Origin: Capnocytophaga periodontitidis | GTDB lineage: Bacteria; Bacteroidota; Bacteroidia; Flavobacteriales; Flavobacteriaceae | Assembly (NCBI RefSeq): GCF_016126015.1 | Contig: NZ_JAEFDB010000007.1 | Coordinates: forward strand, 1 to 64,000 | Direction of reading: 5' to 3' | DNA: 64,000 bases | Part shown: piece after piece, positions 3,859-63,903 of the stretch | How positions within the stretch are numbered: position 1 is the stretch's first letter | Layout: every line of letters starts with the position of its first letter | Made by a program: the position numbers and the translations under genes | The notes under the pieces: model-generated | Seen by the model: only the letters and a program-made list of their open reading frames with translations | What the model was told of the DNA's origin: nothing | Databases searched by the model: none

Positions 3859-4832
3859 CTCTTGCCATCGTAATACTCAATTGGAACGGCAAAAAGCTGT
3901 TAGAACAATTCCTCCCGTCGGTAGTGCGTTACTCACCCGAAGGGCAACTCTACATCGTAGACAATGCCTCTACCGATGATTCTCTTGATTTCGTGCGCAC
4001 CCACTTCCCTGGAATACATCTTGTAGAAAACCCCACCAACAGCGGTTATGCGGGAGGTTACAATCGCGCTTTACAACATATTAAAGCCGATGTGTATTGC
4101 CTGCTGAACTCGGATGTGTTAGTAACTGAAGATTGGCTCTCCCCTATCTTGCGCACTTTTGAAGAGGAACGCATTGCAGTGGTACAGCCTAAAATTAAAG
4201 ATGAAAAACGCCGTACGTATTTTGAATATGCCGGTGCAGCAGGTGGTTTTATCGACCGATATGGGTTCCCGTATTGCAGAGGAAGGGTATTTGAGACCAT
4301 AGAAGAGGACAAAGGTCAGTATAACGAGCCTTCCCCCGTACCCATTTTTTGGGCATCGGGGGCGTGCTTTTTTATACGTGCAGAAGTATTCCACCAGTTA
4401 GGAGGTTTTGACGAAGATTTCTTTGCCCATCAAGAGGAAGTAGATTTGTGCTGGCGAGTGCATCACCTCGGCAAACAAGTGGTGTATTGCGCCGAGAGTA
4501 CTGTCTATCACGTAGGAGGGGCAACTCTCACCGCAGCCAACCCTAAAAAAACCTACCTCAACTTCCGCAATAGTTTGTTTATGTTGCTGAAAAACCTACC
4601 CGCTAAAGGGCTCTATACTACAATTTTCTTACGTATGGTATTGGACGGCATTGCAGGAGTGCGTTTCCTTTTACAAGGCAAGCCGCGTTTTACGTGGGAA
4701 GTAATAAGAGCGCATTTTCATTTTTACAAACGATTTTTCTTCTTTAAAAAGAAACGACCTTCAAAGCTGATTACCAATTATTACCAAGTGAAATCAATAG
4801 TGTGGGAACACTTTGTATTAGGTAAGAAGTAA
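3855..4832 (+). CDS. family 2 glycosyltransferase
   Basis: A 325-residue GT-A fold enzyme. It has AIVILNWNGKKLLEQFLPS at the N-terminus, VDNASTDDS for nucleotide binding, NPTNSGYAGGYNRAL, and NSDV in place of a classical DXD. An acceptor-side motif WASGACFFIRAEVF and FDEDFFAHQEEVDLCWR follow; the last is the usual catalytic-base region. It is closest in pattern to rhamnosyltransferase-like WbbL enzymes that act on lipid-linked or cell-surface glycans; donor and acceptor cannot be told. Translation is coupled to the gene before. Its last two codons and stop lie inside a 7-bp repeat array. Confidence 0.88.
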   Translation: MTLAIVILNWNGKKLLEQFLPSVVRYSPEGQLYIVDNASTDDSLDFVRTHFPGIHLVENPTNSGYAGGYNRALQHIKADVYCLLNSDVLVTEDWLSPILRTFEEERIAVVQPKIKDEKRRTYFEYAGAAGGFIDRYGFPYCRGRVFETIEEDKGQYNEPSPVPIFWASGACFFIRAEVFHQLGGFDEDFFAHQEEVDLCWRVHHLGKQVVYCAESTVYHVGGATLTAANPKKTYLNFRNSLFMLLKNLPAKGLYTTIFLRMVLDGIAGVRFLLQGKPRFTWEVIRAHFHFYKRFFFFKKKRPSKLITNYYQVKSIVWEHFVLGKK

Positions 4833-4850
4833 CAAGTAAGAGGTAAGAGG
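4822..4850. repeat. heptamer array at the end of the GT2 gene
   Basis: Four tandem 7-mers of the form GTAAGAG/GTAACAA. The first two encode the final Lys-Lys and the TAA stop of the glycosyltransferase. Confidence 0.8.
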
Positions 4851-4853
4851 TTT

Positions 4854-5657
4854 TTAGGGTGTTTTTCCTAATTTTTGGAGCTTTTTGGCTAAGTAAAAAC
4901 CGCTTATCAGAGCTGGGAAAAAGGTGAAACAAGTATAAGTAACTAATATTCTTGTTTCATTAATATAGGGAGGGCTAATTATATAAATTAGAACTAAAGG
5001 CGGAAGTGCCCAAACAATAATTGTAATAAACCAGCCTATTTTGAAATTTGTACTTTTAGTATAATGTGTAAAAGGAATGAATAGTGCTAAAATTGCTCCC
5101 AAAACGGTATATATACCTGCTATTGAAACAACCACAGAAAATGAATCCAATGACCCTGAATAATAAACTCCCATTATGATCATTAATATAATAGCTCCTA
5201 TCCAAAAAGAGGAAACAATGTAAAGAATTGCCCTTATTCTTGGGTTAAGCTGATTTATTGGAGGGATTGCCTCTTCTTTTTTAGCAATTCTGTGTAGCAT
5301 CACTCCTAATAATATCCCTATAATGATATTTAAACCTAAGTAACCTAAATGATTTTGAATATTAAACTCATCATAAATACGCCAAAAATTATAAATGTTT
5401 ATAATTGGCAATATGAGTAAACACAATAATGCTATAGCAATGATTCCGCCTTTGGAAAGTTTTTCAAAGGGTACAAATTGCCCTACACTATAGCTTATCA
5501 CAAAACTTTTAAGTAAAAAAATACTATTTTCTTCCCATCGCATTAAAAAAAATAAGGTTTCATAGGATAAAGCATAATACAAATTCAACAGTAATTTAGA
5601 TGCTATAAGAGCGACAAAAATGTACCATACGGTTGTTTTAGGAATCAGTGTTTTCAT
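4854..5657 (-). CDS. polytopic membrane protein of unknown function
   Basis: A 267-residue protein with about eight predicted membrane helices (for example TVWYIFVALIASKLLLNLYY near the N-terminus and ILVTYTCFTFFPALISGFYL near the end). I recognise no motif or family. It is the last gene of a minus-strand run after a secreted protein of unknown function, 11 bp away. Charged residues are confined to short loops, so an enzyme seems less likely than a transport or structural role. Confidence 0.7.
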   Translation of the reverse strand: MKTLIPKTTVWYIFVALIASKLLLNLYYALSYETLFFLMRWEENSIFLLKSFVISYSVGQFVPFEKLSKGGIIAIALLCLLILPIINIYNFWRIYDEFNIQNHLGYLGLNIIIGILLGVMLHRIAKKEEAIPPINQLNPRIRAILYIVSSFWIGAIILMIIMGVYYSGSLDSFSVVVSIAGIYTVLGAILALFIPFTHYTKSTNFKIGWFITIIVWALPPLVLIYIISPPYINETRILVTYTCFTFFPALISGFYLAKKLQKLGKTP

Positions 5658-5668
5658 TGGATATCAGT

Positions 5669-6648: not shown

Positions 6649-7488
6649 TTATTTCAATATTTTTCTAATGTAATTGGCTTCGTGTATGTTTTGAGTAAGC
6701 GCTTCGGCTTGTTCAGTTTCAATAAGAATCTTAAAGGCTTCTAAGTTTTTAATATACTCATTCAGCGCTTTAAGTACGTTGTTTTTGTTTTCCAAAAAGA
6801 TAGGACACCACATTTGGGCATCGCTCTTTGCCAAACGCACGGTAGAGGCAAAACCGGTACTCGCCAAATCAAATATTTGAGCTTCGTCCTTTTCAATTTC
6901 TAAAACGGTCTTCCCCAGCATAAAGGAGCTTACGTGCGAAAGGTGCGACACGTAGGCGGTATGGAGGTCGTGATCGGCAGGTTGCATCATTTTCACGCGC
7001 ATATTCAATGCTTTTACGATGCTCAAAGCGCGGTCTAACAATCGCCAGTTACTTTTTTCTACTTCACAAAGTGCCATTACTTTGCCGTCGAAAAGGTCGT
7101 AGAGCGCTGCCTCAGGTCCTGAATGTTCTGTACCTGCCATAGGGTGTGCCGCGACAAAATTTTGGCGATGAGGATGAGTGGCTACTGCTTCACAAATATG
7201 TGATTTCACCGAACCAGCATCCATTACAAGGGTTTGTTCACCTATTTTATCGAGCACTTGTAGCAATACTTTGTGAATGTGATTCACGGGTACAGCTATG
7301 AGTACGAGGTCGGCATCGGTGAGGTGATTGTAATCGGTGTTTTCATCGATAATGCCTAAATCTAAGGCTTTTTGTATATGAGCGGGGTTGAGGTCGATGC
7401 CTGCAATGGTGTACCCCAAACGTTTTTTCAATTCTAAGGCAAAGGAGCCCCCAATGAGCCCTAAACCTATAATAACAGCTTTTTTCAA
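6649..7488 (-). CDS. tyrA: prephenate dehydrogenase
   Basis: A 279-residue NAD(P)-dependent enzyme that oxidatively decarboxylates prephenate to 4-hydroxyphenylpyruvate in tyrosine synthesis. The Rossmann motif GLGLIGGSFAL stands at residues 8-18, with the acidic Asp of AGIDLN at the end of strand 2. Conserved stretches DAGSVK, HPMAGTEHSGPEAA and SHLSHVSSF carry the substrate-binding and catalytic residues. The length matches a stand-alone TyrA without a chorismate mutase domain. In other Bacteroidota it often clusters with aroA/pheA genes; here its neighbours are unknown genes. Confidence 0.93.
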   Translation of the reverse strand: MKKAVIIGLGLIGGSFALELKKRLGYTIAGIDLNPAHIQKALDLGIIDENTDYNHLTDADLVLIAVPVNHIHKVLLQVLDKIGEQTLVMDAGSVKSHICEAVATHPHRQNFVAAHPMAGTEHSGPEAALYDLFDGKVMALCEVEKSNWRLLDRALSIVKALNMRVKMMQPADHDLHTAYVSHLSHVSSFMLGKTVLEIEKDEAQIFDLASTGFASTVRLAKSDAQMWCPIFLENKNNVLKALNEYIKNLEAFKILIETEQAEALTQNIHEANYIRKILK

Positions 7489-7489
7489 A

Positions 7490-7519
7490 AGTGAATAGTT
7501 TAAAGTGAATAGTTAAAAA
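7490..7519. repeat. heptamer array upstream of tyrA
   Basis: Four degenerate 7-mers (AGTGAAT alternating with AGTTTAA/AGTTAAA) in the gap between tyrA and the next minus-strand gene. Confidence 0.7.
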
Positions 7520-7527
7520 TGAGTGCG

Positions 7528-8586: not shown

Positions 8587-8618
8587 CAAAAGTAAAAAAT
8601 AATTTGCAAAATTCCAAA
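8587..8618 (-). promoter_or_regulatory. promoter of the 7528-8562 gene
   Basis: Minus-strand TTTG, 20 bases, TACTTTTG, about 25 bases before the start codon. It overlaps the octamer array, which supplies the TTTG. Confidence 0.65.
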
Positions 8619-8649
8619 TTACCAAATTTGCTCATTTGCCAATCATTTC
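8602..8649. repeat. octamer array in the divergent promoter region
   Basis: Six degenerate 8-mers of the type ATTTGCAA/AATTCCAA. It carries -33 TTTG boxes for both divergent promoters. Confidence 0.75.
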
Positions 8650-8658
8650 ATATCTTTG
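8627..8658 (+). promoter_or_regulatory. promoter of ybbR-coaE (and perhaps act)
   Basis: TTTG, 20 bases, TATCTTTG. The -7 box ends 36 bases before the ybbR ATG. No other promoter is evident before the act genes, so this one may drive the whole run to 17.1 kb. Confidence 0.7.
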
Positions 8659-10184: not shown

Positions 10185-10200
10185 CGCAACGGCATTATTT

Positions 10201-10230
10201 GTCAATTGTCAATTATGAATTATCAATTGA
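10201..10230. repeat. heptamer array containing the actA start
   Basis: Four 7-mers of the type GTCAATT/ATGAATT. The actA ATG lies inside, and the array encodes the first five residues of ActA (MNYQL). Confidence 0.8.
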
Positions 10231-10917: not shown

Positions 10918-10952
10918 AATTACGAATGACGAGTTACGAATGACGAATGAGA
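10918..10952. repeat. heptamer array at the actA-actB junction
   Basis: Five 7-mers of the type AATTACG/AATGACG. Both candidate actB starts (10904 and 10940) put part of the array into the ActB N-terminus. Confidence 0.8.
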
Positions 10953-13849
10953 ATATACATAATATATCAACATCACGGCGGGATTTCCTAAAATTCTTAG
11001 GTTTTTCTACAGCGGTGGCTGCCTTGGCAGGTTGCGAAGGTGCTGTACATAAAACGATTCCGTATGTAATACAGCCTGAAAGCATTGTAGCAGGTGAAGC
11101 CAATTACTATGCTACTTGTATCGCCGATGGTTTTGACTTTGCCAGCGTACTGGTGAAAACTCGCGAAGGACGACCCATTGCTGTATTGCGCAACCCCGAA
11201 GCCAAAGCAGGAGGGGCAGTGAATGCAAGGATATTGGCATCGGTATTGAGTTTGTATGATGAGCATAGAAACCCCTCCCCTACTCTCTCTCAAGGAGGGG
11301 AATTGTGGCAACAGCTGGATACTAAAGCCATTACAGCCTTAGAGAAAGCAAAAGCTGAAGGGAAACAAATAGTGATGCTCAGTCAAACACTCGCAAGTCC
11401 GTCGAGTTATGCTCTTGTAGAACTATTAAAAGAAAAATACCCTACCTTTAAGCTCGTTGAATACGATACCATATCAGAAGAGGCTATTCTCAACGCTTTT
11501 GAAAAACGTTGTGGACTGCGCGCGATGCCCGATTACAATTTCAGCAAGGCAAAGCTCATCGTTTCCTTTGATGCCGATTTCTTGGGTGATTGGAATGGCG
11601 GAGGCTATGAAGCAGGCTATGCGCAAGGGCGTATCCCCAGCAAAGCAAACGGAATGTCGCGCCATATTCAGTTAGAAGCCAACCTCAGCCTTACAGGCGC
11701 TAATGCCGATGAACGTATCGCACTCACTCCTGACCAAGTGAAAAAAGCATTAGCTTACTGTTTCCAATACCTAAAAGGTTTTGAGGAGAATGAACAATTT
11801 CATTTCCCAAACTCTATTATAGAAAAAGAGGAGAATAAAGTTACTATTGAGGACAAAATAAAGAAAATAGCTTCCGAACTCAAAAAAGCGGGTAGCAAAG
11901 CCTTAGTAGTAACAGGTATTGATAGCGTTGAAGCTCAATTAATCGCTTTTGCTATCAATGAACATCTCCAAAGTGAAGCTTTCTCGCCTCAAACTCCCGT
12001 GCTTACCCGTAAAGGTAATGTTAAAGCTCTACAACAGCTACTCACCGATATGAACGAAGGCAAGGTAGGCGTTCTCTTTATCAACAATCTCAACCCCTTA
12101 TACAGTTTGCCTAACGCCGAAGTGTTTGCCACAGGCTTGAAGAAAGTACCTTTTTCAGTATCCTTTGCGATGCGCGCTGATGAAACTGCCCAGCAAACGA
12201 CCCTTTGGGCGCCTCAACCTCATTATTTAGAGTCGTGGGGCGATGTAGAATTTAAATACGGGCACTACGGACTGATGCAACCTTGTATACGTCCGCTTTT
12301 CAACACCCGCCAATGGCAAGACTGCTTTTTGCAATGGATAGGACACAAGGAGAGCTATTACGATTTTATCAAAGCTCATTGGGAAGTCCATATCTTAAAA
12401 GGATTTTCTTGGGAACAAGCCTTACACAATGGCACATTTGTAAAAGAAGATATAAAATCTTTTGAGTTGCCGAAAGAAGAAAAAATTCCTTCACTGAGGA
12501 AACCGCCTATGACCCTCACACGTGAGGAAACTTTAAGGCTAATAGGCACAGTACTTCCCAGAGAATTAGTAGAAACACCTTTTGAACTCACCCTCTATAC
12601 CAGCACCGCTTTGGGAGACGGACAGCAAGCTAACAATCCTTGGCTACAAGAACTCCCCGACCCTATCCACCGCACTACGTGGGATAACTTCCTCACGATG
12701 CACCCCATCGATGCCCAACGTCTAAGTATTGAGAATTGGCATACTGCCGACGGTGCTTTGGACGGACATCAGGCGAAAATCAGCGCTAATGGTAAAACTA
12801 TTGTTGCTCCCGTACTCATCACCCCTGCGCAAGCACAAGGCAGTGTAGGGCTTGCCTTAGGTTATGGGCGCAAGGCAGGCATACAAACCGAAATGCAAGT
12901 GGGCGTCAATGCCTTTGTGCTTTATAAAGACCATTGTAAAAACCAAGGCGTACAGATAGAAAAAGCAGACGGCACACACGAATTTGCCTGCTTGCAACTG
13001 CAAAATGAATTAGTAGGGCGTAAAAATATCCTCAAAGAGATTTCTTTAGAGACTTTTTTAAGCGAATCCGCTGAAGTGTGGAACCCCAAACGCTTTACAA
13101 CAAAGAAAGACCCTACTACCCCACATCACTTTAAACTCTCTATCGACCTAAATGCGTGCACGGGTTGTGCGGCTTGTGTGATTGCTTGCCACGCCGAGAA
13201 CAATGTGCCCGTAGTAGGCAAAGACGAAGTGCGCCGCTCGCGCGATATGCATTGGTTGCGCATCGACCGTTATGAATCAAGAGAAAACGAACAAAGGTGC
13301 GTAGGCTTTCAGCCCGTGATGTGTCAGCATTGTAATAATGCCCCTTGTGAGACTGTTTGCCCCGTAGTAGCCACCGCTCACGGACAGCAAGGGCAAAACC
13401 AAATGGCTTACAACCGCTGTGTAGGTACGCGTTATTGCGCTAATAACTGCCCTTACAAAGTACGCCGATTCAACTGGTTTCAGTATAGTGAAAACAAGCA
13501 GTTCAACTACAATATGAACAACGAAATAGGGCGTATGGTGCTCAACCCCGATGTAACGGTACGTTCGCGAGGGGTAATGGAAAAGTGTTCCCTCTGTATC
13601 CAGAACACCCAAGCGGTAATACTGAAAGCCAAAAGAGAAGGTCGTGCCGTTGCCCCAGGAGAGTTCAATAATGTAGTAGCTTGTGCAGCTGCTTGTAATA
13701 CAGGAGCTATGGTATTTGGCGATGCTAACGAAGAAGGAAGCAAAATCGCCCAGCTAAGTGCCAGCGATCGTATGTATCAGCTTTTAGCAGAGCTGGGGAC
13801 AGACCCTAATGTGGTGTATCAAGTGAAAATAGTGAATCGTGAAAAGTGA
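10940..13849 (+). CDS. actB: alternative complex III subunit ActB, molybdopterin-like/Fe-S fusion
   Basis: A 969-residue protein with a twin-arginine-type N-terminus (STSRRDFLKFLGFSTAVAAL), a long domain homologous to molybdopterin oxidoreductases (about 40-730), and a C-terminal ferredoxin-like part. Cysteine clusters CTGCAACVIACH, CQHCNNAPCETVCP, CVGTRYCANNCPYK and CSLC...CAAACN would bind four Fe-S clusters. In the complex it relays electrons from the quinol-oxidising membrane subunits to ActA. The upstream ATG at 10904 is an alternative start. As I recall, relatives carry a longer leader before the SRRDFL motif; here that region is repeat DNA. A hairpin-forming insert lies in frame near residue 115. 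Confidence 0.9.
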   Translation: MTNENIHNISTSRRDFLKFLGFSTAVAALAGCEGAVHKTIPYVIQPESIVAGEANYYATCIADGFDFASVLVKTREGRPIAVLRNPEAKAGGAVNARILASVLSLYDEHRNPSPTLSQGGELWQQLDTKAITALEKAKAEGKQIVMLSQTLASPSSYALVELLKEKYPTFKLVEYDTISEEAILNAFEKRCGLRAMPDYNFSKAKLIVSFDADFLGDWNGGGYEAGYAQGRIPSKANGMSRHIQLEANLSLTGANADERIALTPDQVKKALAYCFQYLKGFEENEQFHFPNSIIEKEENKVTIEDKIKKIASELKKAGSKALVVTGIDSVEAQLIAFAINEHLQSEAFSPQTPVLTRKGNVKALQQLLTDMNEGKVGVLFINNLNPLYSLPNAEVFATGLKKVPFSVSFAMRADETAQQTTLWAPQPHYLESWGDVEFKYGHYGLMQPCIRPLFNTRQWQDCFLQWIGHKESYYDFIKAHWEVHILKGFSWEQALHNGTFVKEDIKSFELPKEEKIPSLRKPPMTLTREETLRLIGTVLPRELVETPFELTLYTSTALGDGQQANNPWLQELPDPIHRTTWDNFLTMHPIDAQRLSIENWHTADGALDGHQAKISANGKTIVAPVLITPAQAQGSVGLALGYGRKAGIQTEMQVGVNAFVLYKDHCKNQGVQIEKADGTHEFACLQLQNELVGRKNILKEISLETFLSESAEVWNPKRFTTKKDPTTPHHFKLSIDLNACTGCAACVIACHAENNVPVVGKDEVRRSRDMHWLRIDRYESRENEQRCVGFQPVMCQHCNNAPCETVCPVVATAHGQQGQNQMAYNRCVGTRYCANNCPYKVRRFNWFQYSENKQFNYNMNNEIGRMVLNPDVTVRSRGVMEKCSLCIQNTQAVILKAKREGRAVAPGEFNNVVACAAACNTGAMVFGDANEEGSKIAQLSASDRMYQLLAELGTDPNVVYQVKIVNREK
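11272..11300. repeat. small hairpin element inside actB
   Basis: CCCCTCC and GGAGGGG arms enclose a 15-nt loop, in frame, encoding the low-complexity stretch NPSPTLSQGG. It looks like a dispersed palindromic repeat inserted into the gene rather than ancestral coding sequence. Confidence 0.55.
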
Positions 13850-13865
13850 AAAATCAAAAGTAAAT
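13821..13865. repeat. heptamer array at the actB-actC junction
   Basis: About six degenerate 7-mers (AATAGTG, AATCGTG, AAAAGTG and similar). They encode the ActB C-terminus KIVNREK, provide its stop and run into the actC ATG. Confidence 0.75.
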
Positions 13866-15666
13866 GGTAAATAAATCCTATCATACCATCAGTGAAGATA
13901 TAGCGCGCCCCATCGAAGGTCGTGCTTCGCGTGCGTGGTGGATTGCCTTTGGCATTACCTTTCTTGCAACCCTCTGGGGGGTGTGGGCAATATGGGTAAC
14001 CTTGCGCGACGGCATAGGCGCGTGGGGGCTCAACAAAAGCGTAGGCTGGGCGTGGGACATCACCAACTTTGTGTGGTGGATAGGTATCGGGCACGCGGGG
14101 ACACTCATCTCGGCAGTATTGTTGCTCTTTCGCCAACAGTGGCGAGTGGCTATCAATCGCTCGGCTGAAGCAATGACTATTTTCGCTGTGCTACAAGCGA
14201 GTATCTTCCCAATACTGCATTTAGGCAGACCGTGGTTGCTACATTTCAACTTGCCTATTCCTAACCAATACGGCTCGTTGTGGGACAATTTCAACTCGCC
14301 TTTGCTATGGGATGTTTTTGCTATTGCTACCTACTTTTCGGTATCCTTAGTGTTTTGGTGGGTAAGCTTACTCCCCGATTTTGCGATGCTCCGCGACCAT
14401 GCTCTCAAGCCTTTTCAGAAGAAGATTTACAGCTTGCTGAGTTTTGGGTGGAGTGGTCGTGCCAAAGATTGGCAACGTATGGAAGAAACAATGCTTTTAT
14501 TAGCTGGTATTGCCACTCCGTTAGTAATTTCGGTGCATACTATCGTCTCTTTTGATTTTGCTACTTCGGTAGTCTCTGGTTGGCACACTACTATCTTCCC
14601 GCCCTACTTTGTAGCAGGAGCTATCTTTTCGGGTTTCGCAATGGTGAGCCTGCTACTAATTATCTTGCGCAAAGTATGTAAGTTAGAAGCCTATATCACC
14701 CTCAAACACATCGAGTTGATGAATACCGTGATGTTAGTGGCTGGTAGTATTGTAGCGGTTGCTTACCTCACCGAGTTTTTTATGGCAATGCGCTCTCACT
14801 CAGAATTTGAACAATACGTATTTCGCAATCGTGCTACAGGTGCTTACGCGTGGGCATTCTGGACGATGATTATTTGTAATATAGTCCTCCCTCAACTCTT
14901 ATGGTTCAAAAAGTTACGACGTAGTATCACTTTCTCTGTATGTGTTGCTTTGGTGGTATGTGTAGGGATGTGGTTTGAGCGCTTTGTGATTATCGTTACC
15001 TCACTACACCGCGGTTATCTGCCGTCGTCGTGGACGATGTTCAGTCCTACGTGGGTGGATATAGGGATATTTGTAGGCACTTTGGGATTCTTCTTTTTGT
15101 TGTTTTTATTATATGCAAGGAGTTTCCCGATGATTGCACAAGCAGAAGTGAAAGGTGTCAGCGGACAGGTGTCAGGGGACAGATGTCAGGGGACAGATGT
15201 TAGCGGGCAGGAGTCTCTTAACTCTTATCTCTTAACTCTTACCTCGCCTGAAGAACTTTTAGATAAAATAAAAGAATTAAAATCAGAAGGCAAGGAAATT
15301 CAAGAAGTATATACGCCTTTCTATGTACACGGTTTAGACGAAGCCTTGGGGCTTAAGCGCACTCGCTTAGGCAAAGCTACTTTTCTATACGGACTCATAG
15401 GCTTGTTTTTCGGGTGTTGGCTTACCTATTTCACAATGATAAAAGACTGGCCAATGGATATTGGTGGAAAGCCTAATGCCACTTTCTGGCAAAACCTCCC
15501 CGCTTTTGTACCCATAATATTCGAGTTGGTTGTATATTTTGCAGCGCATCTATTGGTGATTAGTTTCTTTATCAAAAGTAGGTTATATCCATTCAAAAAA
15601 GCTGAAAATCCTATAAAGAGAAGTAGTGATGATAAATTTGTAATTCAGGTAAGAGATAACAATTAA
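13864..15666 (+). CDS. actC: ActC-ActD fusion of alternative complex III
   Basis: A 600-residue protein joining two usually separate subunits. Residues 1 to about 430 are ActC, an NrfD-like ten-helix quinol-binding subunit (NFVWWIGIGHAGTLISAVLL, then LHLGRPWLLHFN, ending SFPMIAQAEVK). Residues about 455-590 are ActD (DUF3341) with EIQEVYTPFYVHGLDEALGL and DWPMDIGGKPN and two membrane helices. Between them is a linker of about 25 residues encoded by a 7-bp tandem array. ActD lacks the first dozen or so residues expected of a free subunit. No internal stop or frameshift was seen. ActC should form part of the quinol site; ActD is an accessory membrane subunit. Confidence 0.9.
   Translation: MVNKSYHTISEDIARPIEGRASRAWWIAFGITFLATLWGVWAIWVTLRDGIGAWGLNKSVGWAWDITNFVWWIGIGHAGTLISAVLLLFRQQWRVAINRSAEAMTIFAVLQASIFPILHLGRPWLLHFNLPIPNQYGSLWDNFNSPLLWDVFAIATYFSVSLVFWWVSLLPDFAMLRDHALKPFQKKIYSLLSFGWSGRAKDWQRMEETMLLLAGIATPLVISVHTIVSFDFATSVVSGWHTTIFPPYFVAGAIFSGFAMVSLLLIILRKVCKLEAYITLKHIELMNTVMLVAGSIVAVAYLTEFFMAMRSHSEFEQYVFRNRATGAYAWAFWTMIICNIVLPQLLWFKKLRRSITFSVCVALVVCVGMWFERFVIIVTSLHRGYLPSSWTMFSPTWVDIGIFVGTLGFFFLLFLLYARSFPMIAQAEVKGVSGQVSGDRCQGTDVSGQESLNSYLLTLTSPEELLDKIKELKSEGKEIQEVYTPFYVHGLDEALGLKRTRLGKATFLYGLIGLFFGCWLTYFTMIKDWPMDIGGKPNATFWQNLPAFVPIIFELVVYFAAHLLVISFFIKSRLYPFKKAENPIKRSSDDKFVIQVRDNN
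15153..15245. repeat. heptamer array forming the ActC-ActD linker
   Basis: Two arrays in tandem. 15153-15212 alternates AGGTGTC with AGGGGAC. 15213-15245 is the reverse complement of the GTAAGAG-type repeat (AACTCTT units). All of it is translated in frame. Confidence 0.85.
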
Positions 15667-15702
15667 CAATCAACAATTAAGAAATAACAATTAACAAATA
15701 AT
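15647..15702. repeat. heptamer array at the actD-actE junction
   Basis: Eight 7-mers (AGGTAAG, AGATAAC, AATTAAC and variants). They encode the QVRDNN tail and TAA stop of ActCD and reach the ATG at 15701. Confidence 0.85.
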
Positions 15703-16291
15703 GGGATATGTTGATATTCATATAATATATATATTTTGTCGCTACACTTTGACAAAGTTTAAGACTTTGTCAAAGTCTCTAATGTATGTATTACTAATGC
15801 TATTGGTAGTTGGTTGCAGGAACAAACAAGAGCGCAACATTGAGTTTATGCCCGATATGTATGAGAGTCCTGCTTATAAAACTTATGAAGTCGCACCGCT
15901 CTCTCCTCCTGAGCACACTGTAAAAAGAGGTGAGTTGCCCTATAGCTACCCTAATACTATTGAAGGGTATGAGCAAGCCAAAGCTCAATTGCACAACCCT
16001 TTAGCAACTGATACCCTACAGCAAACTCAAAACCTCACCAATGGCAAAGAACTTTACGCCATCTATTGCGGGCTCTGTCACGGTGAGAAAGGCAACGGCA
16101 AAGGAGTTTTAGTGCAAAGGGAGAAATTTTTTGGAGTGCCTAATTATAAAAATAGAGATTTTACGGAGGGGAGTATCTATCACGTAATTTACTACGGACG
16201 CAATGCAATGCCCGCCTTTGCTACTCAACTCAGTGAGAAAGAACGCTGGCAAGTAACAATGTACGTAGAACAGATAACAGGTAACAAGTAA
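15701..16291 (+). CDS. actE: alternative complex III subunit ActE, monoheme cytochrome c lipoprotein
   Basis: Up to 196 residues, with a lipobox VVGC giving a lipid-anchored cytochrome c. One heme site (CGLCH, in LYAIYCGLCHGEKGNGKG) and a distal methionine in YYGRNAMPAFATQL fit a class I cytochrome. It is the mobile-type heme subunit of the complex on the periplasmic side. The start is uncertain: ATG 15701, TTG 15749 and ATG 15782 all keep the lipobox. The last has no positive n-region, which favours an upstream one. Upstream codons cover two small palindromes. The C-terminus QITGNK is encoded by a heptamer array. Confidence 0.88.
   Translation: MGYVDIHIIYIFCRYTLTKFKTLSKSLMYVLLMLLVVGCRNKQERNIEFMPDMYESPAYKTYEVAPLSPPEHTVKRGELPYSYPNTIEGYEQAKAQLHNPLATDTLQQTQNLTNGKELYAIYCGLCHGEKGNGKGVLVQREKFFGVPNYKNRDFTEGSIYHVIYYGRNAMPAFATQLSEKERWQVTMYVEQITGNK
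15746..15777. repeat. pair of ACTTTG-N-CAAAGT palindromes
   Basis: Two 13-bp palindromes with a one-base centre (A, then T) lie 5 bp apart at the 5' end of actE. Similar units occur at 38520-38567 and 61836-61868. Confidence 0.7.
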
Positions 16292-16305
16292 CAGGTAAAG
16301 GTATG
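16271..16305. repeat. heptamer array at the actE-actF junction
   Basis: Five 7-mers (CAGATAA, CAGGTAA, CAAGTAA and variants). They encode the last six residues and stop of ActE and run up to the actF ATG. Confidence 0.85.
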
Positions 16306-17094
16306 ACACTATTCACTTTTCACTATTCGCTTTTCACTATTCACTTTTCACTATTCACTTTGTTGTTTGTAGCGCTTACGTTAGTAGGGGTATTGGTATT
16401 TTATGCTATCAACAAAGTCACGCACGCTGAGTGGGCTGTGAGTTTGTACCCTATAATGAAGCGTATCACAACGCCTTTGTGGTTGGTGTTATTAGTTTTG
16501 CTGGGAGTGCTGTATATAGTGCATCGCGAACCTTATTTTCTGTTGCGTGCTGTGGGCTATATGGCAGTATGGGTGGGGTATCGCCATACTTTAAAAAAGT
16601 TTAAGAGTTTAACGCCTCACGTACTATTGTTAGTTATTTTCTTTCTTACCGAAACTCCAATGGCGTGGGATTGGTTTTTGAGTCTCACTCCCGAATGGCA
16701 TAGCACCCTATTTGCGTGGCAATTGCTCAGCAGTTTTCTGCTTTCAGGCATTGCCCTCATTACCTTATTTAGCAAGCCAGAGCACTATCACGATTTAGGA
16801 AAATACCTCTTGGGATTCTCTATTTTTTGGGCGTATTTGTGGTTCTCACAATATATGCTGATATGGTACGCCAATATCCCTGAAGAAACTGTTTATTACC
16901 AAACCCTTCTTAGCAAAGGCTATGGAGAGGCTATTGTAGCAATGCTCATTCTCAGTTTTGCGCTACCTTTTCTCATCTTGCTTTCCTCACGATCCAAACA
17001 AAAAAAGCTGCTCCTTTTTGGAACAGCTCTCCTTATATTATTAGGGCAATACCTCAATTTCTATTTAATGGTAATGCCGTTTGTGGAGGAGTAA
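16303..17094 (+). CDS. actF: alternative complex III subunit ActF (short form)
   Basis: A 263-residue polytopic protein of the NrfD-like quinol-binding type. Recognisable ActF stretches are TETPMAWDWFLSLTPEWHST, HDLGKYLLGFSIFWAYLWFS and QYMLIWYANIPEETVYY. From memory, flavobacterial ActF is over 400 residues, so this copy lacks a large N-terminal part and some of the C-terminus. Residues 2-20 are encoded by a perfect-period heptamer array and make a hydrophobic FTFHYSL/FTIHFSL repeat that would extend the first membrane helix. It is the last gene of the operon; no cytochrome oxidase genes follow. Confidence 0.85.
   Translation: MTLFTFHYSLFTIHFSLFTLLFVALTLVGVLVFYAINKVTHAEWAVSLYPIMKRITTPLWLVLLVLLGVLYIVHREPYFLLRAVGYMAVWVGYRHTLKKFKSLTPHVLLLVIFFLTETPMAWDWFLSLTPEWHSTLFAWQLLSSFLLSGIALITLFSKPEHYHDLGKYLLGFSIFWAYLWFSQYMLIWYANIPEETVYYQTLLSKGYGEAIVAMLILSFALPFLILLSSRSKQKKLLLFGTALLILLGQYLNFYLMVMPFVEE
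16307..16362. repeat. heptamer array encoding the ActF N-terminus
   Basis: Eight nearly perfect 7-mers alternating CACTATT and CACTTTT. Read in frame they give a seven-residue peptide repeat. Confidence 0.9.
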
Positions 17095-20451: not shown

Positions 20452-22002
20452 ATGGAAAATACAGACGATCAATTCAAAAAAGTTGTTGCTCACGCCAAAG
20501 AATATGGCTTTATTTTCCCATCCAGTGAAATCTACGACGGACTCGGAGCTGTGTACGATTATGGGCAAAATGGCGTTGAACTAAAAAAGAATATCCGCGA
20601 ATATTGGTGGCGCGCAATGGTGCAAATGAACGAGAATATTGTGGGTATCGATGCTGCTATCTTTATGCACCCTACTACGTGGAAGGCTTCTGGGCATGTG
20701 GATGCTTTCAACGACCCTCTTATCGATAACAAAGACTCTAAAAAACGATACCGCGCCGATGTGCTCGTAGAAGATTACGTAGCCAAACTCGACGATAAGA
20801 TTGAAAAAGAAATCGCTAAAGCTCAAAAACGTTTTGGTGATGCTTTTGACCGCGAACAGTTTGTAACTACCAATCCTCGTGTGTTAGAATACAAAAAACG
20901 TGGCGAAGAAATATTACACCGCTTGGGTAAATCGCTTGAGAAAGAAGACCTCGCCGATGTAAAAGCCCTTATCGAAGAACTCGAAATTGCCGACCCCGAA
21001 ACAGGTTCTCGCAACTGGACAGATGTGAAACAGTTCAACCTAATGTTCGGCACCAAAATAGGCGCCTCTGCCGATGCCTCTATGGATTTATACCTACGTC
21101 CCGAAACCGCTCAGGGTATTTTCGTAAACTTCCTAAACGTGCAAAAATCCGGACGTATGAAAATTCCTTTCGGTATCGCTCAAACGGGTAAAGCCTTCCG
21201 CAACGAGATTGTGGCACGTCAGTTTATTTTCCGTATGCGCGAGTTCGAACAAATGGAAATGCAATTCTTCATCAAACCAGGTACCCAACAACAATGGTAT
21301 GAGTATTGGAAAGAAACGCGCCTCAAATGGCACTTGTCCTTAGGAATGGGTGAAGAAAACTATCGCTATCACCCACACGAAAAGCTCGCCCACTACGCCG
21401 ATGCTGCTTGCGATATCGAGTTCCGTTTCCCTTTTGGTTTCAAAGAATTAGAAGGTATCCACTCTCGTACTAATTTCGACCTCGGTAACCACGAAAAGTA
21501 TTCAGGTAAAAAAATGCAATACTTTGACCCTGAAGAAAAAGTGAGCTATACTCCTTATGTACTCGAAACTTCTATCGGGCTCGACCGTATGTTCCTTGCA
21601 GTATTCTCTAACTCATTGCAAGAAGAAGCGTTAGAAGGAGGAGATACTCGCACCGTATTGCGCTTGCCTTTTGTGTTGGCACCTACCAAAGTAGCCGTAT
21701 TGCCATTGCTCAAAAAAGACGGACTTCCAGAAGTTGCCGAACAAATCGTGAACGAGTTAAAATACGATTTCAATGTAGCTTACGACGAAAAAGATGCTGT
21801 AGGTCGCCGTTATCGCCGTCAAGATGCGGTAGGGACACCTTTCTGCGTAACCGTTGATCACCAAACTTTGGAAGACAAGACCGTTACCTTACGCCACCGC
21901 GACACTATGGAGCAAGTGCGCATTGCCATCCCTGAATTGCGCGCTGCTATTGCCAAAGAAGTGGATATGCGCAATTGGCTGCACAAATTAGATACAAAGT
22001 AA
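20452..22002 (+). CDS. glyS: glycyl-tRNA synthetase (class II, alpha2 type)
   Basis: A 516-residue single-chain glycine-tRNA ligase of the eukaryote/archaea-like homodimeric type. N-terminal FIFPSSEIYDGLGAVYDYGQ is the catalytic-domain start. YLRPETAQGIFVNF and GKAFRNEIVARQFIFRMREF (motif 2) follow, and ETSIGLDRMFLAVF is motif 3. The C-terminal anticodon-binding domain runs from about residue 405. The length is typical of Bacteroidota. It is a single gene with the PAS-domain gene 18 bp behind. Its stop codon is inside a heptamer array. Confidence 0.95.
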   Translation: MENTDDQFKKVVAHAKEYGFIFPSSEIYDGLGAVYDYGQNGVELKKNIREYWWRAMVQMNENIVGIDAAIFMHPTTWKASGHVDAFNDPLIDNKDSKKRYRADVLVEDYVAKLDDKIEKEIAKAQKRFGDAFDREQFVTTNPRVLEYKKRGEEILHRLGKSLEKEDLADVKALIEELEIADPETGSRNWTDVKQFNLMFGTKIGASADASMDLYLRPETAQGIFVNFLNVQKSGRMKIPFGIAQTGKAFRNEIVARQFIFRMREFEQMEMQFFIKPGTQQQWYEYWKETRLKWHLSLGMGEENYRYHPHEKLAHYADAACDIEFRFPFGFKELEGIHSRTNFDLGNHEKYSGKKMQYFDPEEKVSYTPYVLETSIGLDRMFLAVFSNSLQEEALEGGDTRTVLRLPFVLAPTKVAVLPLLKKDGLPEVAEQIVNELKYDFNVAYDEKDAVGRRYRRQDAVGTPFCVTVDHQTLEDKTVTLRHRDTMEQVRIAIPELRAAIAKEVDMRNWLHKLDTK

Positions 22003-22020
22003 GAGATAAGAGGTAAGAAA
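21999..22020. repeat. heptamer array after glyS
   Basis: Three GTAAGAG-type 7-mers provide the glyS stop (TAA) and fill the gap to the PAS gene. Confidence 0.75.
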
Positions 22021-24579: not shown

Positions 24580-24594
24580 GAGGTAAGAGATAAG
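24574..24594. repeat. heptamer array after the PAP2 gene
   Basis: Three 7-mers (AGATAAG, AGGTAAG, AGATAAG) contain the last Arg codon and the TAA stop. Confidence 0.75.
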
Positions 24595-25880: not shown

Positions 25881-25910
25881 TAAGTAAGAGATAAGAAGTA
25901 AGAGGTAAAC
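25881..25910. repeat. heptamer array between two terminators
   Basis: Four GTAAGAG-type 7-mers separate the small-RNA terminator from that of the adhesin gene. Confidence 0.75.
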
Positions 25911-50387: not shown

Positions 50388-50760
50388 TTTTTGGGACAAT
50401 ATTTTTTTCGTTTTTTATATATTTTCTTTTTAAAATATGTAGTAGTTTGATAATCAAACGAAATTAAATAAGATTATTTTTTATTTTATTCACTTTCTAA
50501 ATTTGCAAATTTTAACTGTAAAAAAAATGAATATTGAATTATTTTTCCACTTTTTACCAAATTAAAATCATTAAAACATCAGATTTAAGATATTATTTTT
50601 ACTAAAAATGAAGTTTAGGTTAATTTATTGTTAAAATTAAAGTAATGAAGTTTTACAAGGGTATTTGAGACAAAAACAATCTTTCGATATTTTTTAAAAT
50701 ATTTTAATAACTATTCGTCTTACGTATATGAATAATATAAAAATAACAAACTAAAATTAC
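50388..50760. other. AT-rich divergent regulatory gap
   Basis: No gene is supported in this stretch between susC and the response regulator. It is rich in A and T runs and may hold regulator sites for both operons, but I see no clear inverted or direct operator repeat. Confidence 0.5.
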
Positions 50761-50771
50761 TAATTGACAAA

Positions 50772-50802
50772 TTGCTTAATTAACTAATTATCTTTATCTT
50801 TG
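50772..50802 (+). promoter_or_regulatory. promoter of the two-component operon
   Basis: TTG, 20 bases, TATCTTTG, only 7 bases before the start codon. The -33 box lies in a four-unit octamer array at 50761-50792 (TAATTGAC, AAATTGCT and variants). Confidence 0.65.
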
Positions 50803-51483: not shown

Positions 51484-52761
51484 ATGAAAATATCATTGAA
51501 AAACTACACTCTGCGCTACCTTACACTCGCCTTCTTAGTGATTTTGGCGGTGTGGGCAGTTGTATTCTACGCTTATATTTTAGATGAAGTGTACGACAAT
51601 ATAGACGATGGACTTAAGGATAAAAAGACGCTTATTATCCAAAATATCCTCCGCCACCCCGAACTATTGCAAGTGAATGAGTTTGGTATAGAGGATTTTA
51701 GGGTCTATCCTTCACAAGAAGATTTTTCTGACCGCAATATCTTTAGCAATGCATTTTTCTATATGCCTTTTGACGATGAAGATGAGCCTTATAGGGTGCT
51801 AAAAACAGGGTTCTACGACCACGATATGAACCCTTATACGCTTGAGATACGCACTTCGACAGTGGAAAAAGATGACCTACTATTCAACTTGGCGGTTGCC
51901 TTGGGGGTGCTTTATGTGGTATTAGTGATTTCGATGTACCTTATCAATCTATTAGTAATCAACAAAATATGGAAACCTTTTAAGGGAATTGTCTCTGCAA
52001 TTAGACAATATGAGGTGGGGAGTAAAACTACTCTACAACCTATCACTACTGAGGTTATAGAGTTCAACATACTGCACGACAACATCCAACAGATGTGGCA
52101 GCGTAATGAGGTGATGTTTGAGGAACAAAAGGTGTTTATTGAGAATGCTTCACACGAACTACAAACGCCCTTGGCTATCACGCTCAACAAATTGGAATTG
52201 CTCTGCAATGATTCGTCGCTGACTGAGAAGCAATTGGTGCAACTGAGTGAGGTAAAACAATCGTTGATGCGAATGACTCACCTAAACAAGTCGCTACTGA
52301 TGCTCACTCGTATAGAAAATCAACAATACAAGCAAGCAGAATATATTTCATTTCAAACTCTTACTACTGATATTATAGAAGACTTGAGTGATTTGATAGC
52401 CTTTAAATCATTGGAAGTAAACATAGAAGAAATAAGTGATTTTCAAGTAGAGATGAATCCTGATTTAGCAAGGGTGCTCGTTTCAAACTTATTGCGCAAT
52501 GCTATAAAATATACTGAAAAGGGAGGCAATATACAAATATTGATAGAAGAGAATCGTTTTCAAGTAAAAAATACTGCCAAAGATGCCATACACTTAGATC
52601 CTTCTAAGATTTTCCAACGCTTCCACAAGGGAGAGCAGGATGCTACTTCAACGGGTTTGGGTTTAGCTATAGTAAAATCGATTGCAGAGCGCTATCATTT
52701 AAAGGTGTATTACACTTTTGAGGAGGGAAGACACTGTTTTCAGGTAAGAGATAAGAGATAA
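51484..52761 (+). CDS. sensor histidine kinase
   Basis: A 425-residue membrane kinase. It has two membrane helices (about 12-32 and 138-160) flanking a sensor domain of about 105 residues outside the inner membrane. A dimerisation domain follows with the H-box ENASHELQTPLAITLNKLEL (phospho-His at 224). The HATPase domain has VSNLLRNAIKYTEKGGN as N-box and FHKGEQDATSTGLGLAIVKS as G-box. It phosphorylates the regulator encoded just upstream; the stimulus is unknown. The last residues QVRDKR and the stop are encoded by a heptamer array, with the same QVRD tail as ActCD. Confidence 0.92.
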   Translation: MKISLKNYTLRYLTLAFLVILAVWAVVFYAYILDEVYDNIDDGLKDKKTLIIQNILRHPELLQVNEFGIEDFRVYPSQEDFSDRNIFSNAFFYMPFDDEDEPYRVLKTGFYDHDMNPYTLEIRTSTVEKDDLLFNLAVALGVLYVVLVISMYLINLLVINKIWKPFKGIVSAIRQYEVGSKTTLQPITTEVIEFNILHDNIQQMWQRNEVMFEEQKVFIENASHELQTPLAITLNKLELLCNDSSLTEKQLVQLSEVKQSLMRMTHLNKSLLMLTRIENQQYKQAEYISFQTLTTDIIEDLSDLIAFKSLEVNIEEISDFQVEMNPDLARVLVSNLLRNAIKYTEKGGNIQILIEENRFQVKNTAKDAIHLDPSKIFQRFHKGEQDATSTGLGLAIVKSIAERYHLKVYYTFEEGRHCFQVRDKR

Positions 52762-52775
52762 GAGGTAAGAGAGGT
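52741..52775. repeat. heptamer array at the end of the kinase gene
   Basis: Five GTAAGAG/GATAAGA-type 7-mers. They encode QVRDKR and the stop of the kinase. Confidence 0.85.
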
Positions 52776-53389: not shown

Positions 53390-53420
53390 CAAAGATACAA
53401 ATAATTTGTTAATTAGCAAA
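53390..53420 (-). promoter_or_regulatory. promoter of the outer-membrane barrel gene
   Basis: Minus-strand TTTG, 19 bases, TATCTTTG, 28 bases before the ATG. The TTTG is part of the octamer array. Confidence 0.75.
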
Positions 53421-53449
53421 TTTGTAGATTGTCAAATCTATAAAATTAG
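53402..53449. repeat. octamer array
   Basis: Six 8-mers of the type TAATTTGT/TAATTAGC/AAATTTGT. It includes the stop codon of the gamma-carbonic anhydrase gene and the -33 box of the next promoter. Confidence 0.8.
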
Positions 53450-54163: not shown

Positions 54164-54211
54164 AGAATTAGAAAATTAGATAATTAGAAAATTAGCAGAT
54201 TTACTAATGTG
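54164..54211. repeat. octamer array between bioB and DUF3820
   Basis: Six 8-mers of the type AAAATTAG/ATAATTAG; the last contains the bioB stop codon (minus strand). Confidence 0.8.
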
Positions 54212-55360: not shown

Positions 55361-55391
55361 CAAAGGTAGTAAATTAATTACGAATGACAAA
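55361..55391 (-). promoter_or_regulatory. promoter of the bioB operon
   Basis: Minus-strand TTTG, 19 bases, TACCTTTG, 24 bases before the ATG. The TTTG lies in a heptamer array. Confidence 0.75.
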
Positions 55392-55407
55392 TTACGAATT
55401 ACGAAAG
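55377..55407. repeat. heptamer array between cmk and bioB
   Basis: Four 7-mers (ATTACGA, ATGACAA, ATTACGA, ATTACGA) overlap the bioB -33 box. Confidence 0.8.
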
Positions 55408-61654: not shown

Positions 61655-61685
61655 CAAAGGTAAGAATAATTTGTCAATTAGCAAA
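61655..61685 (-). promoter_or_regulatory. promoter of murD
   Basis: Minus-strand TTTG, 19 bases, TACCTTTG, 42 bases before the ATG; the TTTG lies in the octamer array. Confidence 0.75.
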
Positions 61686-61714
61686 TTTGGAAATTAGCAA
61701 ATTTGGAAATTTAC
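61668..61714. repeat. octamer array upstream of murD
   Basis: Six units alternating AAATTTGG and AAATTAGC, one of them a base short. Confidence 0.8.
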
Positions 61715-62061: not shown

Positions 62062-62238
62062 ATGAATAAGAATACAGTTTTGGGGTGGGCAACCCTTATA
62101 ATGATTGTAGTAGGCTTAGGGCTTATCGCCTTGGGAGCTTTTAAATACAACGAAGTTGCAGGCTTTGGCTTTGGAGCTGTAGGCATTGGTTTCTTCGCTA
62201 TTGCGTGGGTGTTCAATGCCCTTAAAGGAAGAGTGTAA
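62062..62238 (+). CDS. CAL67264-family small membrane protein
   Basis: A 58-residue protein with two membrane helices (LGWATLIMIVVGLGLIALGA, then FGFGAVGIGFFAIAWVFNAL) joined by a short loop. The pattern matches the small flavobacterial family named after CAL67264 of Gramella; its function is unknown. The start was taken as the Met of MNKNTVLG, since the longer frame overlaps the promoter. It is followed by gapN across an octamer array. Confidence 0.8.
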   Translation: MNKNTVLGWATLIMIVVGLGLIALGAFKYNEVAGFGFGAVGIGFFAIAWVFNALKGRV

Positions 62239-62239
62239 T

Positions 62240-62291
62240 AATTAGCTAATTTGTCAATGAGCAAATTGGCAAATTTACAAATCGACAAATG
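62240..62291. repeat. octamer array upstream of gapN
   Basis: Six 8-mers (AATTAGCT, AATTTGTC, AATGAGCA and variants) leading directly into the gapN ATG, which arises from the array. Confidence 0.85.
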
Positions 62292-63866
62292 AATATGATT
62301 CCAGAACAATTTCAAGTAAAACCGTTTCGCCAAGAGACTTATCTCATTGATGGCGAACTCCGTGAGTGGAAAGGTGAGTTCACGGATATTTATTCCACTA
62401 TTTCATCTACTGAAAAGTATGCACACACACTCTTAGGCAGTGTACCTTCGCTGGGTGAAAGCGATGCTTTAGAAGCTTTACATTCGGCTACTGAGGCTTA
62501 TAACAAGGGCAAAGGTTTATGGCCTACAATGAAAGTTAAAGACCGCATCAGCGCTATGCTCAAGTTTGTAAAACAGATGGAAAAACAACGCGATGAGGTG
62601 GTAAAACTGATGATGTGGGAAATTGGTAAAAATTTAGATGACTCTCGCAAAGAGTTTGACCGTACGGTAGAATACATCTATGACACTATCAACGCTTATA
62701 AGGAACTTGACAACGAATCGTCTAAATTTGTACGACGTGATGGGGTGTATGCTCTTATTCGTCGTGGCCCTTTAGGGGTTGTGCTCTGTTTAGGTCCTTA
62801 CAACTACCCACTAAATGAGACTTTTGCGCTTATCATTCCCGCACTTATTATGGGTAATACCGTTATTTTCAAGCCTGCTAAACACGGGGTATTACTCTTT
62901 ACGCCTCTGTTAGAAGCTTTCCAAAATTCTTTTCCTCGTGGGGTAATCAACATTCTCTATGGGCGTGGTCGCACAGTAGCTCCGCCTATTATGCAAAGTG
63001 GCAAAGTGGATGTATTGGCGCTCATAGGCAACAGCAAAACAGCTATTGCACTACAAGACCAGCACCCTAAGAAAAATCGCTTGCGCCTTGTTTTTGGCTT
63101 GGAAGCTAAAAACCCAGGGGTTATCCTCCCCGATGCTAACTTAGATTTAGCAGTAGACGAATGTGTAAAAGGAGCCTTATCGTTTAACGGACAGCGTTGT
63201 ACAGCATTGAAAATTCTTTATGTACACGCTAAAATAAAAGATGAGTTTTTGAAGCGTTTTGCTGAAAAAGTAGATGCCCTTAAATTCGGTAATCCGTGGG
63301 AAGAGAAAGTAGCCCTCACTCCCCTACCCGAGGTAGAAAAACCTGCTTTCTTACAAGAACTCATAGATGATGCGCTTGCTAAAGGGGCTACCATTCAGAA
63401 CAAAAAAGGCGGTGAACGCACGGATAACTTTATCTTCCCAGCAGTACTCTACCCTGTTTCTAAGGATATGAGAGTGTACAATGAGGAGCAATTTGGCCCA
63501 CTTGTACCTGTAAAACCTTTCTCTAACATCAATGAGATTATTGATGAGATTTCGGATTCTAAATACGGACAGCAAATCAGTTTGTTTGGTGAAGACCCTC
63601 ACGAGCTTTCTCCACTAATTGATATGTTAGTGAATATGCTTTGCCGCGTGAATTTGAACAGTTTATGTCAGCGAGGTCCAGATGTATTCCCGTTCACTGG
63701 TAGAAAAGATTCGGCTGTGGGCACATTAAGTGTACACGATGCCTTGCGCTCATTCTCTATCCGTACTTTTGTATCGTTCCAAAACAACGATTACAACGAC
63801 AAGATAGTAGAGAATTTATTGCGTACTGGTGCGTCTAACTTCATCAATACAGATTATATTCTTTAG
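62289..63866 (+). CDS. gapN: NADP-dependent glyceraldehyde-3-phosphate dehydrogenase (non-phosphorylating)
   Basis: A 525-residue aldehyde dehydrogenase-superfamily enzyme oxidising glyceraldehyde 3-phosphate to 3-phosphoglycerate with NADPH formation. [20 protein letters not shown] is the cofactor and active-site Asn region. [10 protein letters not shown] carries the general-base Glu, [16 protein letters not shown] the catalytic Cys, and [15 protein letters not shown] follows. The C-terminus [20 protein letters not shown] is characteristic of the plant/flavobacterial GapN group. It ends at a strong terminator. A second Met three codons in is an alternative start. Confidence 0.9.
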
Positions 63867-63903
63867 GAGTTAGGAATTAGAAATTAGAAATTAGAAATTA
63901 GTG
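63863..63903. repeat. heptamer array after gapN
   Basis: Five to six 7-mers of the type GGAATTA/GAAATTA. The array contains the gapN stop codon. Confidence 0.85.

Follow-up and report, generated by a model that had tools for sequence, protein, structure and literature searches.

Why do short tandem arrays with a period of 7 or 8 bp stand at so many gene borders of Capnocytophaga periodontitidis? The question is raised by a stretch of 64,000 nucleotides from its genome (hereafter the window, G000:C53:1-64000, where G000 is the 3.23-Mb draft genome in 55 contigs). The original prediction had listed about 20 such arrays and had considered slippage or template switching at gene junctions, a mobile element, or a regulatory element as their origin. 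Our best explanation, to which we assign a probability of about 60%, is that the arrays arise by mutational iteration in 7- or 8-nt steps and are filtered by selection, as a variant of the heptamer repeats known from other bacteria.

Genome-scale counts were made on 864 kb of G000, namely, the window plus 800 kb of contig C1 (positions are labeled W and C1:, respectively), and the counts in this and the following paragraph refer to this sample unless another scope is given. Genes were called with our own script, with approximate start positions, and were named from Pfam matches; the names actE and gapN were taken over from the original prediction. The intergenic set held 667 regions with a margin of 25 bp on each side (116,422 bp), and the coding set comprised 668,421 bp. 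Arrays were found with a lag-match detector, and five dinucleotide shuffles, for which means are reported, served as the null model. Array counting replaced plain autocorrelation of the spacers, which had shown an excess at 7, 8, and 9 and also at 2-4 in G000 intergenic DNA. At a score of at least 11, there were 38 intergenic arrays of period 7 (shuffled mean 0.4; coding 2), 21 of period 8 (0.2; 3), 8 of period 14 (0.8; 1), and 13 of period 16 (0.4; 0). The control periods 5 and 6 gave 0 and 1 intergenic arrays. The 7-bp unit is over-represented against the shuffles, biased towards non-coding DNA, and dispersed over the chromosome. One could object that AT-rich spacers yield such patterns by chance low complexity, or that assembly errors do so in a draft of 55 contigs. 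However, the counts at periods 7 and 8 in the shuffles reach about 1% of those observed, a three-unit RTAANAR pattern has 133 matches in the whole G000 genome vs 3 for the reversed pattern, and the complete C. ochracea genome has a similar array density. We consider this explanation refuted, and the original prediction was right to set simple low complexity aside.

Its strict period did not hold to the same extent as the period excess itself: the units are degenerate, and in some arrays the alternation of two unit types makes 14 or 16 the best-scoring period. Its number agrees with ours, as a scan of the whole window gave 20 arrays, of which three are weak or questionable (those at 8567, at 38400 with TTTATAT, and at 42862, where the array belongs to a hairpin). 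Seventeen were found in intergenic regions with their 25 bp margins, and Tandem Repeats Finder (TRF), run on the window besides the lag-match detector, returned many rows with period 7, 8, 14, or 16. A looser cut-off gave 92 arrays in the sample, 17 of which sit in the window. The 7-mers belong to the families RTAAGAG and RTAACAR, AAAAGTG, AATTACG/AATGACG, AATTAAC/AATTGAC, TTAGGNN, and TCAGGGG, and the 8-mer words are mostly AATTWGCW, AATTGACA, and AATTAACA. Both the position at gene borders and the change of words at a kept period, as had been proposed, are borne out. Only six arrays of period 7 or 8 lie well inside predicted coding sequence, and a stop codon lies inside 22 of 91 arrays.

How do the arrays evolve? 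The closest relative compared was G014, another species that is nearly colinear with the window. At 314 orthologous junctions, arrays are present in both genomes at 24, in G000 only at 15, in G014 only at 3, and in neither at 272. Gaps and substitutions were compared at 304 of these, which are no longer than 700 bp and have flanking proteins of 80% identity or more. Length changes of 7 bp were found at C1:31340, C1:84610, C1:173030, and W15667, of 8 bp at C1:35662, and of 16 bp at W61614 and at W54164, where the 8-mer array AATTAGAA (54166..54195, +) is 16 bp shorter in G014. Nine of 51 array gaps amount to one or two units of the array concerned, and gaps of 7, 8, or 16 bp account for 11 of 51 in arrays vs 18 of 310 outside (Fisher p 0.0007). 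Whole-unit changes at orthologous junctions thus bear out the slippage-like gain and loss of units between relatives that had been suggested for the window.

Arrays are also replaced between fixed flanks. At C1:97759, an 8-mer array of G000 corresponds to a CACTTTT 7-mer array in G014. The 8-mer array at the start of the aldehyde dehydrogenase gene (gapN; 62261..62290, +; junction W62239) corresponds to RTAACAR-like 7-mers, and GATAAGA units at W52762 correspond to GTTTCAG/GGGTCAG. At W55338, the window has AATTACG and another relative, G017, has AATTGAC. In array positions outside promoters, 58 of 576 sites are substituted between G000 and G014 (10.1%) and 13.8% of bases are gapped, compared with 953 of 16,359 sites (5.8%) and 4.9% in other intergenic DNA (p 0.0001 for the excess of substitutions). 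In 87 of 109 cases, a substitution matches the base at a distance of one unit, vs 77.2 for other offsets, a weak signal of homogenization between units. Some arrays, e.g., those at C1:20455, C1:82243, and C1:281919, are unchanged between G000 and G014. Base-for-base conservation across distant species was rejected as a reading of the array at C1:82243: G011 has exactly this array, but the sequence flanking it is nearly identical as well. DNA identity in this region is 97.5-99.8% over ~900 bp, with the ActD proteins of the two species being 83% identical, which looks like recent transfer judging by the sequences.

Arrays as hot spots of gene gain and loss were also considered. Among 27 differences in gene content between G000 and G014, some of which result from gene calling, 9 have an array at one of the three junctions compared, a raw count from which we make no claim. 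One of the arrays at such a site, AAAAGTG (13828..13872, +), spans a stop and a start and stands where G014 carries an extra gene. This gene lies between an iron-sulphur protein gene and actC-actD, at the position of window 13849-13864, and is missing from the window; G014, G017, and G011 have ~1.9 kb of additional DNA at this junction. Conversely, the window carries a D12-class DNA methyltransferase gene and a neighbour (57175-59036) that are absent at the corresponding G014 junction.

Are the arrays copies of one another? They could be a dispersed or mobile repeat, spread by ectopic copying or by an unknown element and diverging later. One small set of words at many loci, words that are specific for the species, and the replacement of array types between fixed flanks would fit this idea. 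Yet when each 7-mer array is matched to the other arrays of the 864 kb, its longest exact match averages 13.8 bp, with 13.6 bp for unit-shuffled and 13.9 bp for column-shuffled arrays (n = 35), and 11.1 bp vs 11.8 bp for shuffled arrays in G014. Because the matches are no longer than those of shuffled-unit arrays, the 7-mer arrays have words in common but no blocks. Near-identical multi-unit copies at several loci were not found in the 864 kb, where the 8-mers have a weak excess in match length, and no common flanks were noticed among the listed junctions. The block test spans 864 kb of 3.23 Mb, and copying unit by unit would slip past it. We regard dispersal as distinctly unlikely, and the mobile element of the original prediction finds no support in the 7-mers.

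What, then, is the relation of the arrays to the genes they border? The polarity counts with stop overlap separated cover G000, G011, and G017, whereas G014 was excluded as its arrays are partly orthologous to those of the window. They use a purine threshold of 0.08, and the earlier counts of outward polarity, given further below, one of 0.10; both the polarity tests and the phase tests below were picked after the data had been viewed. Where an array overlaps a stop, the stop-bearing strand is the sense strand in 18:5 cases for 7-mers (purine-rich strand) and 12:2 for 8-mers (AATTAGC strand). Arrays that follow a stop within 60 bp without overlapping it have no strand bias (5:7 and 8:6). Arrays that lie within 60 bp before a start have the opposite strand as sense (20:2 for 7-mers, 15:2 for 8-mers); 7-mers farther than 60 bp upstream have no bias (12:17). 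Of 69 7-mer arrays, 62 have one or both strands with stops in every frame, vs 45.9 for permuted units; for 8-mer arrays, it is 24 of 42 vs 25.1. Three-frame stops were rejected as the function of the arrays and retained solely within the stop filter.

When stop overlap is not separated, arrays within 15 bp of gene edges point outward (41:6 for 7-mers, 20:6 for 8-mers). They might accordingly be repair scars, with broken spacer ends being extended by iterated synthesis before joining so that arrays point away from genes. Head-to-head array pairs at C1:24875 and window 16269/16307, as well as the array at the site of the extra G014 gene, agree with this idea. However, the outward bias past stops is gone once stop-overlapping arrays are set apart, and Ku had no match in G000, G011, G014, or G017. 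The idea of outward extension was therefore dropped, and we rate it as highly improbable.

In the window, the stop codon lies inside the array at all seven genes for which this had been noted. GTAAGAG-type units (4820..4851, +) hold the stop of the GT2 gene (4830-4832) and are kept in G014. The actD stop lies in a AATTAACA-type 7-mer array (15657..15701, +) whose G014 copy is exactly 7 bp shorter, and the actE stop in GTAACAG units (16269..16303, +), for which G014 and G017 have GTAAGAG. A GTAAGAG array (22000..22018, +) begins at the glyS stop and is very similar in G014 and G017 and absent in G007. The PAP2 gene ends in AGATAAG units (24574..24595, +) with a hairpin and then a T run just after, and the histidine kinase gene ends in TAAGAGA units (52745..52772, +), replaced by GTTTCAG/GGGTCAG units in G014. 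Finally, TTAGGAA/TTAGAAA units (63863..63901, +) hold the TAG stop of the aldehyde dehydrogenase gene (gapN).

A second register is found at promoters. Bacteroidota promoters consist of a -33 box, TTTG, and a -7 box, TAnnTTTG. Among 248 upstream-region array counts, in which arrays of divergent spacers are counted twice, 36 end less than 25 bp from TAnnTTTG, which we take as a predicted -7 box. Octamers by a -7 box have TTG at offset 22 or 23 in 23 of 23 cases (one duplicate removed), corresponding to a -33 box at N19 spacing; over 2000 random rotations of the array, the count averages 6.1 and never exceeds 14. Heptamers have TTG there in 8 of 12 cases (rotated mean 2.3, maximum 6). Among 461 promoter-like sites without a detected array, TTG is at 22 in 131 and at 23 in 93; 26 of the 131 and 14 of the 93 have a second TTG at offset 15, forming a pair at a 7- or 8-bp step. 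Array bases within the promoter core are substituted relative to G014 at 5 of 157 sites (3.2%), compared with 3.6% in cores without an array; upstream of the core, it is 11 of 147 (7.5%).

Promoter-linked cases in the window are found at 55376 and 61668, with weaker stretches by 8651, 50795, and 53390. TTCGTAA 7-mers (55361..55405, -; TTGTCAA units in G017) run into the promoter of a radical-SAM/BATS gene, with the -7 box at 55361-55368 and TTG at 22. An 8/16-mer array (61655..61711, -; 16 bp shorter in G014) runs into that of a MurD-like gene, with the -7 box at 61655-61662 and TTG at 15 and 22. Two weak 8-mer arrays also lead into promoters, one at 8609..8658 (+; -7 box TATCTTTG at 8651-8658, TTG at offsets 15 and 23) and one at 50755..50802 (+; -7 box 50795-50802, TTG at 23 and 31). 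A weak 8-mer-like stretch at 53390..53430 (-), its upstream end set by eye, has the -7 box at 53390-53397 and TTG at 22.

This phase lock to the -33 box, the strand polarity before starts, and the paired TTG even at sites without a detected array could also mean that the arrays are selected elements, i.e., sites bound by RNA polymerase, by an RNA-binding protein, or by the ribosome, with a period that matches a step of the protein. Units beyond the promoter core, though, evolve faster than other intergenic DNA, array abundance ranges from >100 to near none among sister species, and arrays also occur within a protein linker. Of six G017 orthologues of arrayed promoters, four keep TTG at 22 or 23, and one keeps the array while five lack it. 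Binding sites are hence a possible but improbable general explanation. As for the regulatory element of the original prediction, position speaks for it in the minority of arrays that enter the -33 box, and the faster evolution of the other arrays speaks against it. A bolder idea, which we also rate as improbable, is that 7/8-nt iteration might drive the evolution of promoters in Capnocytophaga. It would multiply -33 boxes in the step from the -33 TTG to the second TTG, which is 7 or 8 bases nearer to the -7 box. Strains would carry ladders of overlapping -33 boxes, slippage would change the number of boxes and with it the level of expression, and the same process would rewrite gene ends and could fill a fusion linker. 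If promoter ladders alter expression, they would add to the regulatory variation of oral bacteria.

The linker mentioned above lies in actC-actD, which is fused in G000 and close relatives and gives two separate matches in most other relatives. At 15153..15245 (+), two arrays of opposite polarity, AGGTGTCAGCGGAC and then CTCTTAA/CTCTTAT, are open throughout and encode the linker of ActC-ActD. They score 29 and 15, the top two of the six coding-internal arrays in the 864 kb, with the other four scoring 11. G014 has both and G017 the second one, whereas the fused gene of G011 and of G007 is free of arrays. The original prediction, with its arrays at gene borders, had missed this internal pair. 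As the linker has neither stop nor promoter duty, arrays can exist without a border function.

Array abundance varies by lineage, and the words vary by species. The three-unit RTAANAR pattern is frequent in four members of the genus (G000 133, G011 130, G014 125, and G017 104), and the remaining 16 of 20 genus genomes have 0-13 matches. Outside the genus, 20 genomes have 0-6 except for G025 of the same order with 39, and in a spread sample of the phylum, 27 of 148 genomes have at least one match. The 8-mer pattern occurs in 9 of 40 relatives, all within the genus (G000 65, G007 42, G014 33, G017 27, G001 16, G011 15, G002 11, G004 1, and G013 1). A word-free period scan found GAATTNT 7-mers in G002 (9 rows in 80 kb), CTAACCA-type 7-mers and 11-mers in G012, just two A-rich arrays in 80 kb of G003, and no array in 80 kb of G016. 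Period 11 is prominent in two relatives: G017 has 52 and G011 has 43 such intergenic arrays in 480 kb each, many with AACGAA-type words, and G000 has 8 in 864 kb. Four Capnocytophaga genomes have the same period spectrum. It recurs in weaker form across 80 named Flavobacteriia loci (1.63 Mb; gene calls rougher, closest relatives not among them), where period 7 gave 11 intergenic arrays vs 0-4 at any other period. Five loci from five genera (L206, L210, L211, L214, and L221) have similar three-unit AATTATA arrays at ~position 5200, upstream of an apparent promoter; unlike the Capnocytophaga arrays, they look conserved.

The mechanism that we favor would start with the iteration of short stretches in steps of about 7 or 8 nt (11 in some relatives). 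Its source is most likely misaligned re-copying, by slippage or short template switching, in DNA synthesis, and the arrays would not be a single moving element; both the copying step itself and the cause of its length of 7 or 8 (and 11) nt are what we infer. Selection would purge arrays from most coding sequence, where a step not divisible by 3 disrupts the reading frame, and spacers, gene ends, and one tolerant linker would retain them. At gene ends, the arrays that survive would be those with the strand supplying a stop codon, and at promoters those in the register that keeps TTG at -33, and some arrays now provide stop codons or parts of predicted promoters. The words shared among loci probably stem from arrays starting at recurrent border sequences. 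Neither a missing mismatch repair system nor a missing Y-family polymerase was accepted as the cause, as both families were matched in 20 of 20 genus genomes; all 20 have MutS, so a mismatch repair defect is not required. Apart from the normal MutS, a MutS_I domain match was seen at C1:467177-467428 within an open frame of 1808 aa.

Several results weigh against this explanation. Slippage alone does not account for the word set shared across loci, and it is argued from another species, G014, rather than from strains. Not whole units are 42 of the 51 array gaps, many of them where the array type is replaced and the alignment has little meaning. The 8-mers match one another over 16.5 bp vs 15.9 bp for unit-shuffled and 14.2 bp for column-shuffled arrays (n = 24; 864 kb), a slight excess. 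Promoters explain the strand bias on the start side just in part, with 36 of the 248 upstream array counts adjoining a -7 box. Lastly, 28 of 185 promoter-core array bases are gapped in G014, of which 15 come from the replaced array at C1:97759 and 11 from the loss of one 16-bp unit at W61614; 8 of 11 junctions have no gap in the core.

The remaining arrays of the window complete this picture. An array of period 14/7, AAAGTGAATAGTT (7488..7522, -), stands at the start of a prephenate dehydrogenase gene (Pfam) and is degraded in G014. A cytochrome gene is preceded by TTGTCAA units (10199..10228, +), upstream of which G014 has an extra AATGACG/AGTTACG array, and followed by TTACGAA/TGACGAG units (10920..10946, +). 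The 7/14-mer array CACTATTCACTTTT (16307..16361, +) probably forms the apparent N-terminus of a gene starting at 16303. GTAAGAG units at 25882..25908 (+) precede a hairpin, with G014 having the same units in changed order. Two repeats of other kinds were noticed. A 66-bp unit occurs twice at 19253-19384 (86% match in TRF), over predicted frames on both strands. The other is a palindromic element of ~120 bp, AACTTTGNCAAAGTT ... GGGCGTTTTGCAAACGCCC, which is dispersed and lies at window 61791-61870 and 15738-15776 and at C1:199620-199750; it has several copies in the 864 kb and many matches in G014 and looks like a small non-autonomous repeat.

How do the arrays compare with known systems? Cyanobacteria have short tandemly repeated repetitive (STRR) sequences, which are heptamer tandem arrays in spacers. 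At promoters, the Capnocytophaga arrays match the Bacteroidota pair of -33 and -7 boxes at N19 spacing, as predicted from sequence, but unlike in a plain Bacteroidota promoter, the -33 region is iterated at a 7- or 8-bp step, often with another TTG at offset 15. The original prediction knew of no description of this kind for flavobacteria. According to MacGregor (2015; PMC4679880), however, TAACTGA repeats with other heptamers alongside occur in three of them, Gramella forsetii, Aequorivita sublithincola, and Elizabethkingia anophelis, and TAACTGA direct repeats are found in Beggiatoaceae, Cyanobacteria, and some Bacteroidetes. As described there, they resemble our arrays in being short heptamer arrays in spacers, many before starts, with patchy spread and with flavobacterial cases that mix heptamers. 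The TAACTGA system uses a single fixed word, with related heptamers seldom repeated in the Beggiatoaceae genome (PMC4679880), whereas the Capnocytophaga arrays have a word family and lie in many cases at gene ends; reading the 92 arrays of the 864 kb by eye gave no tandem TAACTGA. Heptameric repeats GGGAATC and GGGGA(C/T)T of Xanthomonas and Nostoc are presented by Rehm et al. (2015; PMC4692102) as G-rich, quadruplex-forming, and of one word type. The Capnocytophaga arrays are mostly AT-rich, with many word types, an octamer class, and the promoter phase lock. Runs of G are missing from the main words of the 92 arrays, such as GTAAGAG and AATTAGCA, which are thus not of the G-rich quadruplex kind, and are present in a minority, such as CCTAACC and TCAGGGG.

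For Capnocytophaga spacer tandem repeats and Bacteroidetes heptamers, no title or abstract on the present arrays was found in the open-licence literature. The octamer class with its promoter phase lock, the way in which strand polarity divides between a filter at stops and a bias on the start side, the replacement of words at fixed junctions, and the array-coded protein linker appear to be new. Word replacement, the differences in abundance between sister species, and the two functional registers (stop codon and -33 box) make the origin of such arrays testable. Heptamer repeats of unrelated bacteria have been without an accepted cause, and the quadruplex idea was built on the G-rich ones. Period, place, and strand polarity are common to the Capnocytophaga arrays and the known heptamer repeats, and because AT-rich words have them as well, the cause should be more general than quadruplexes.

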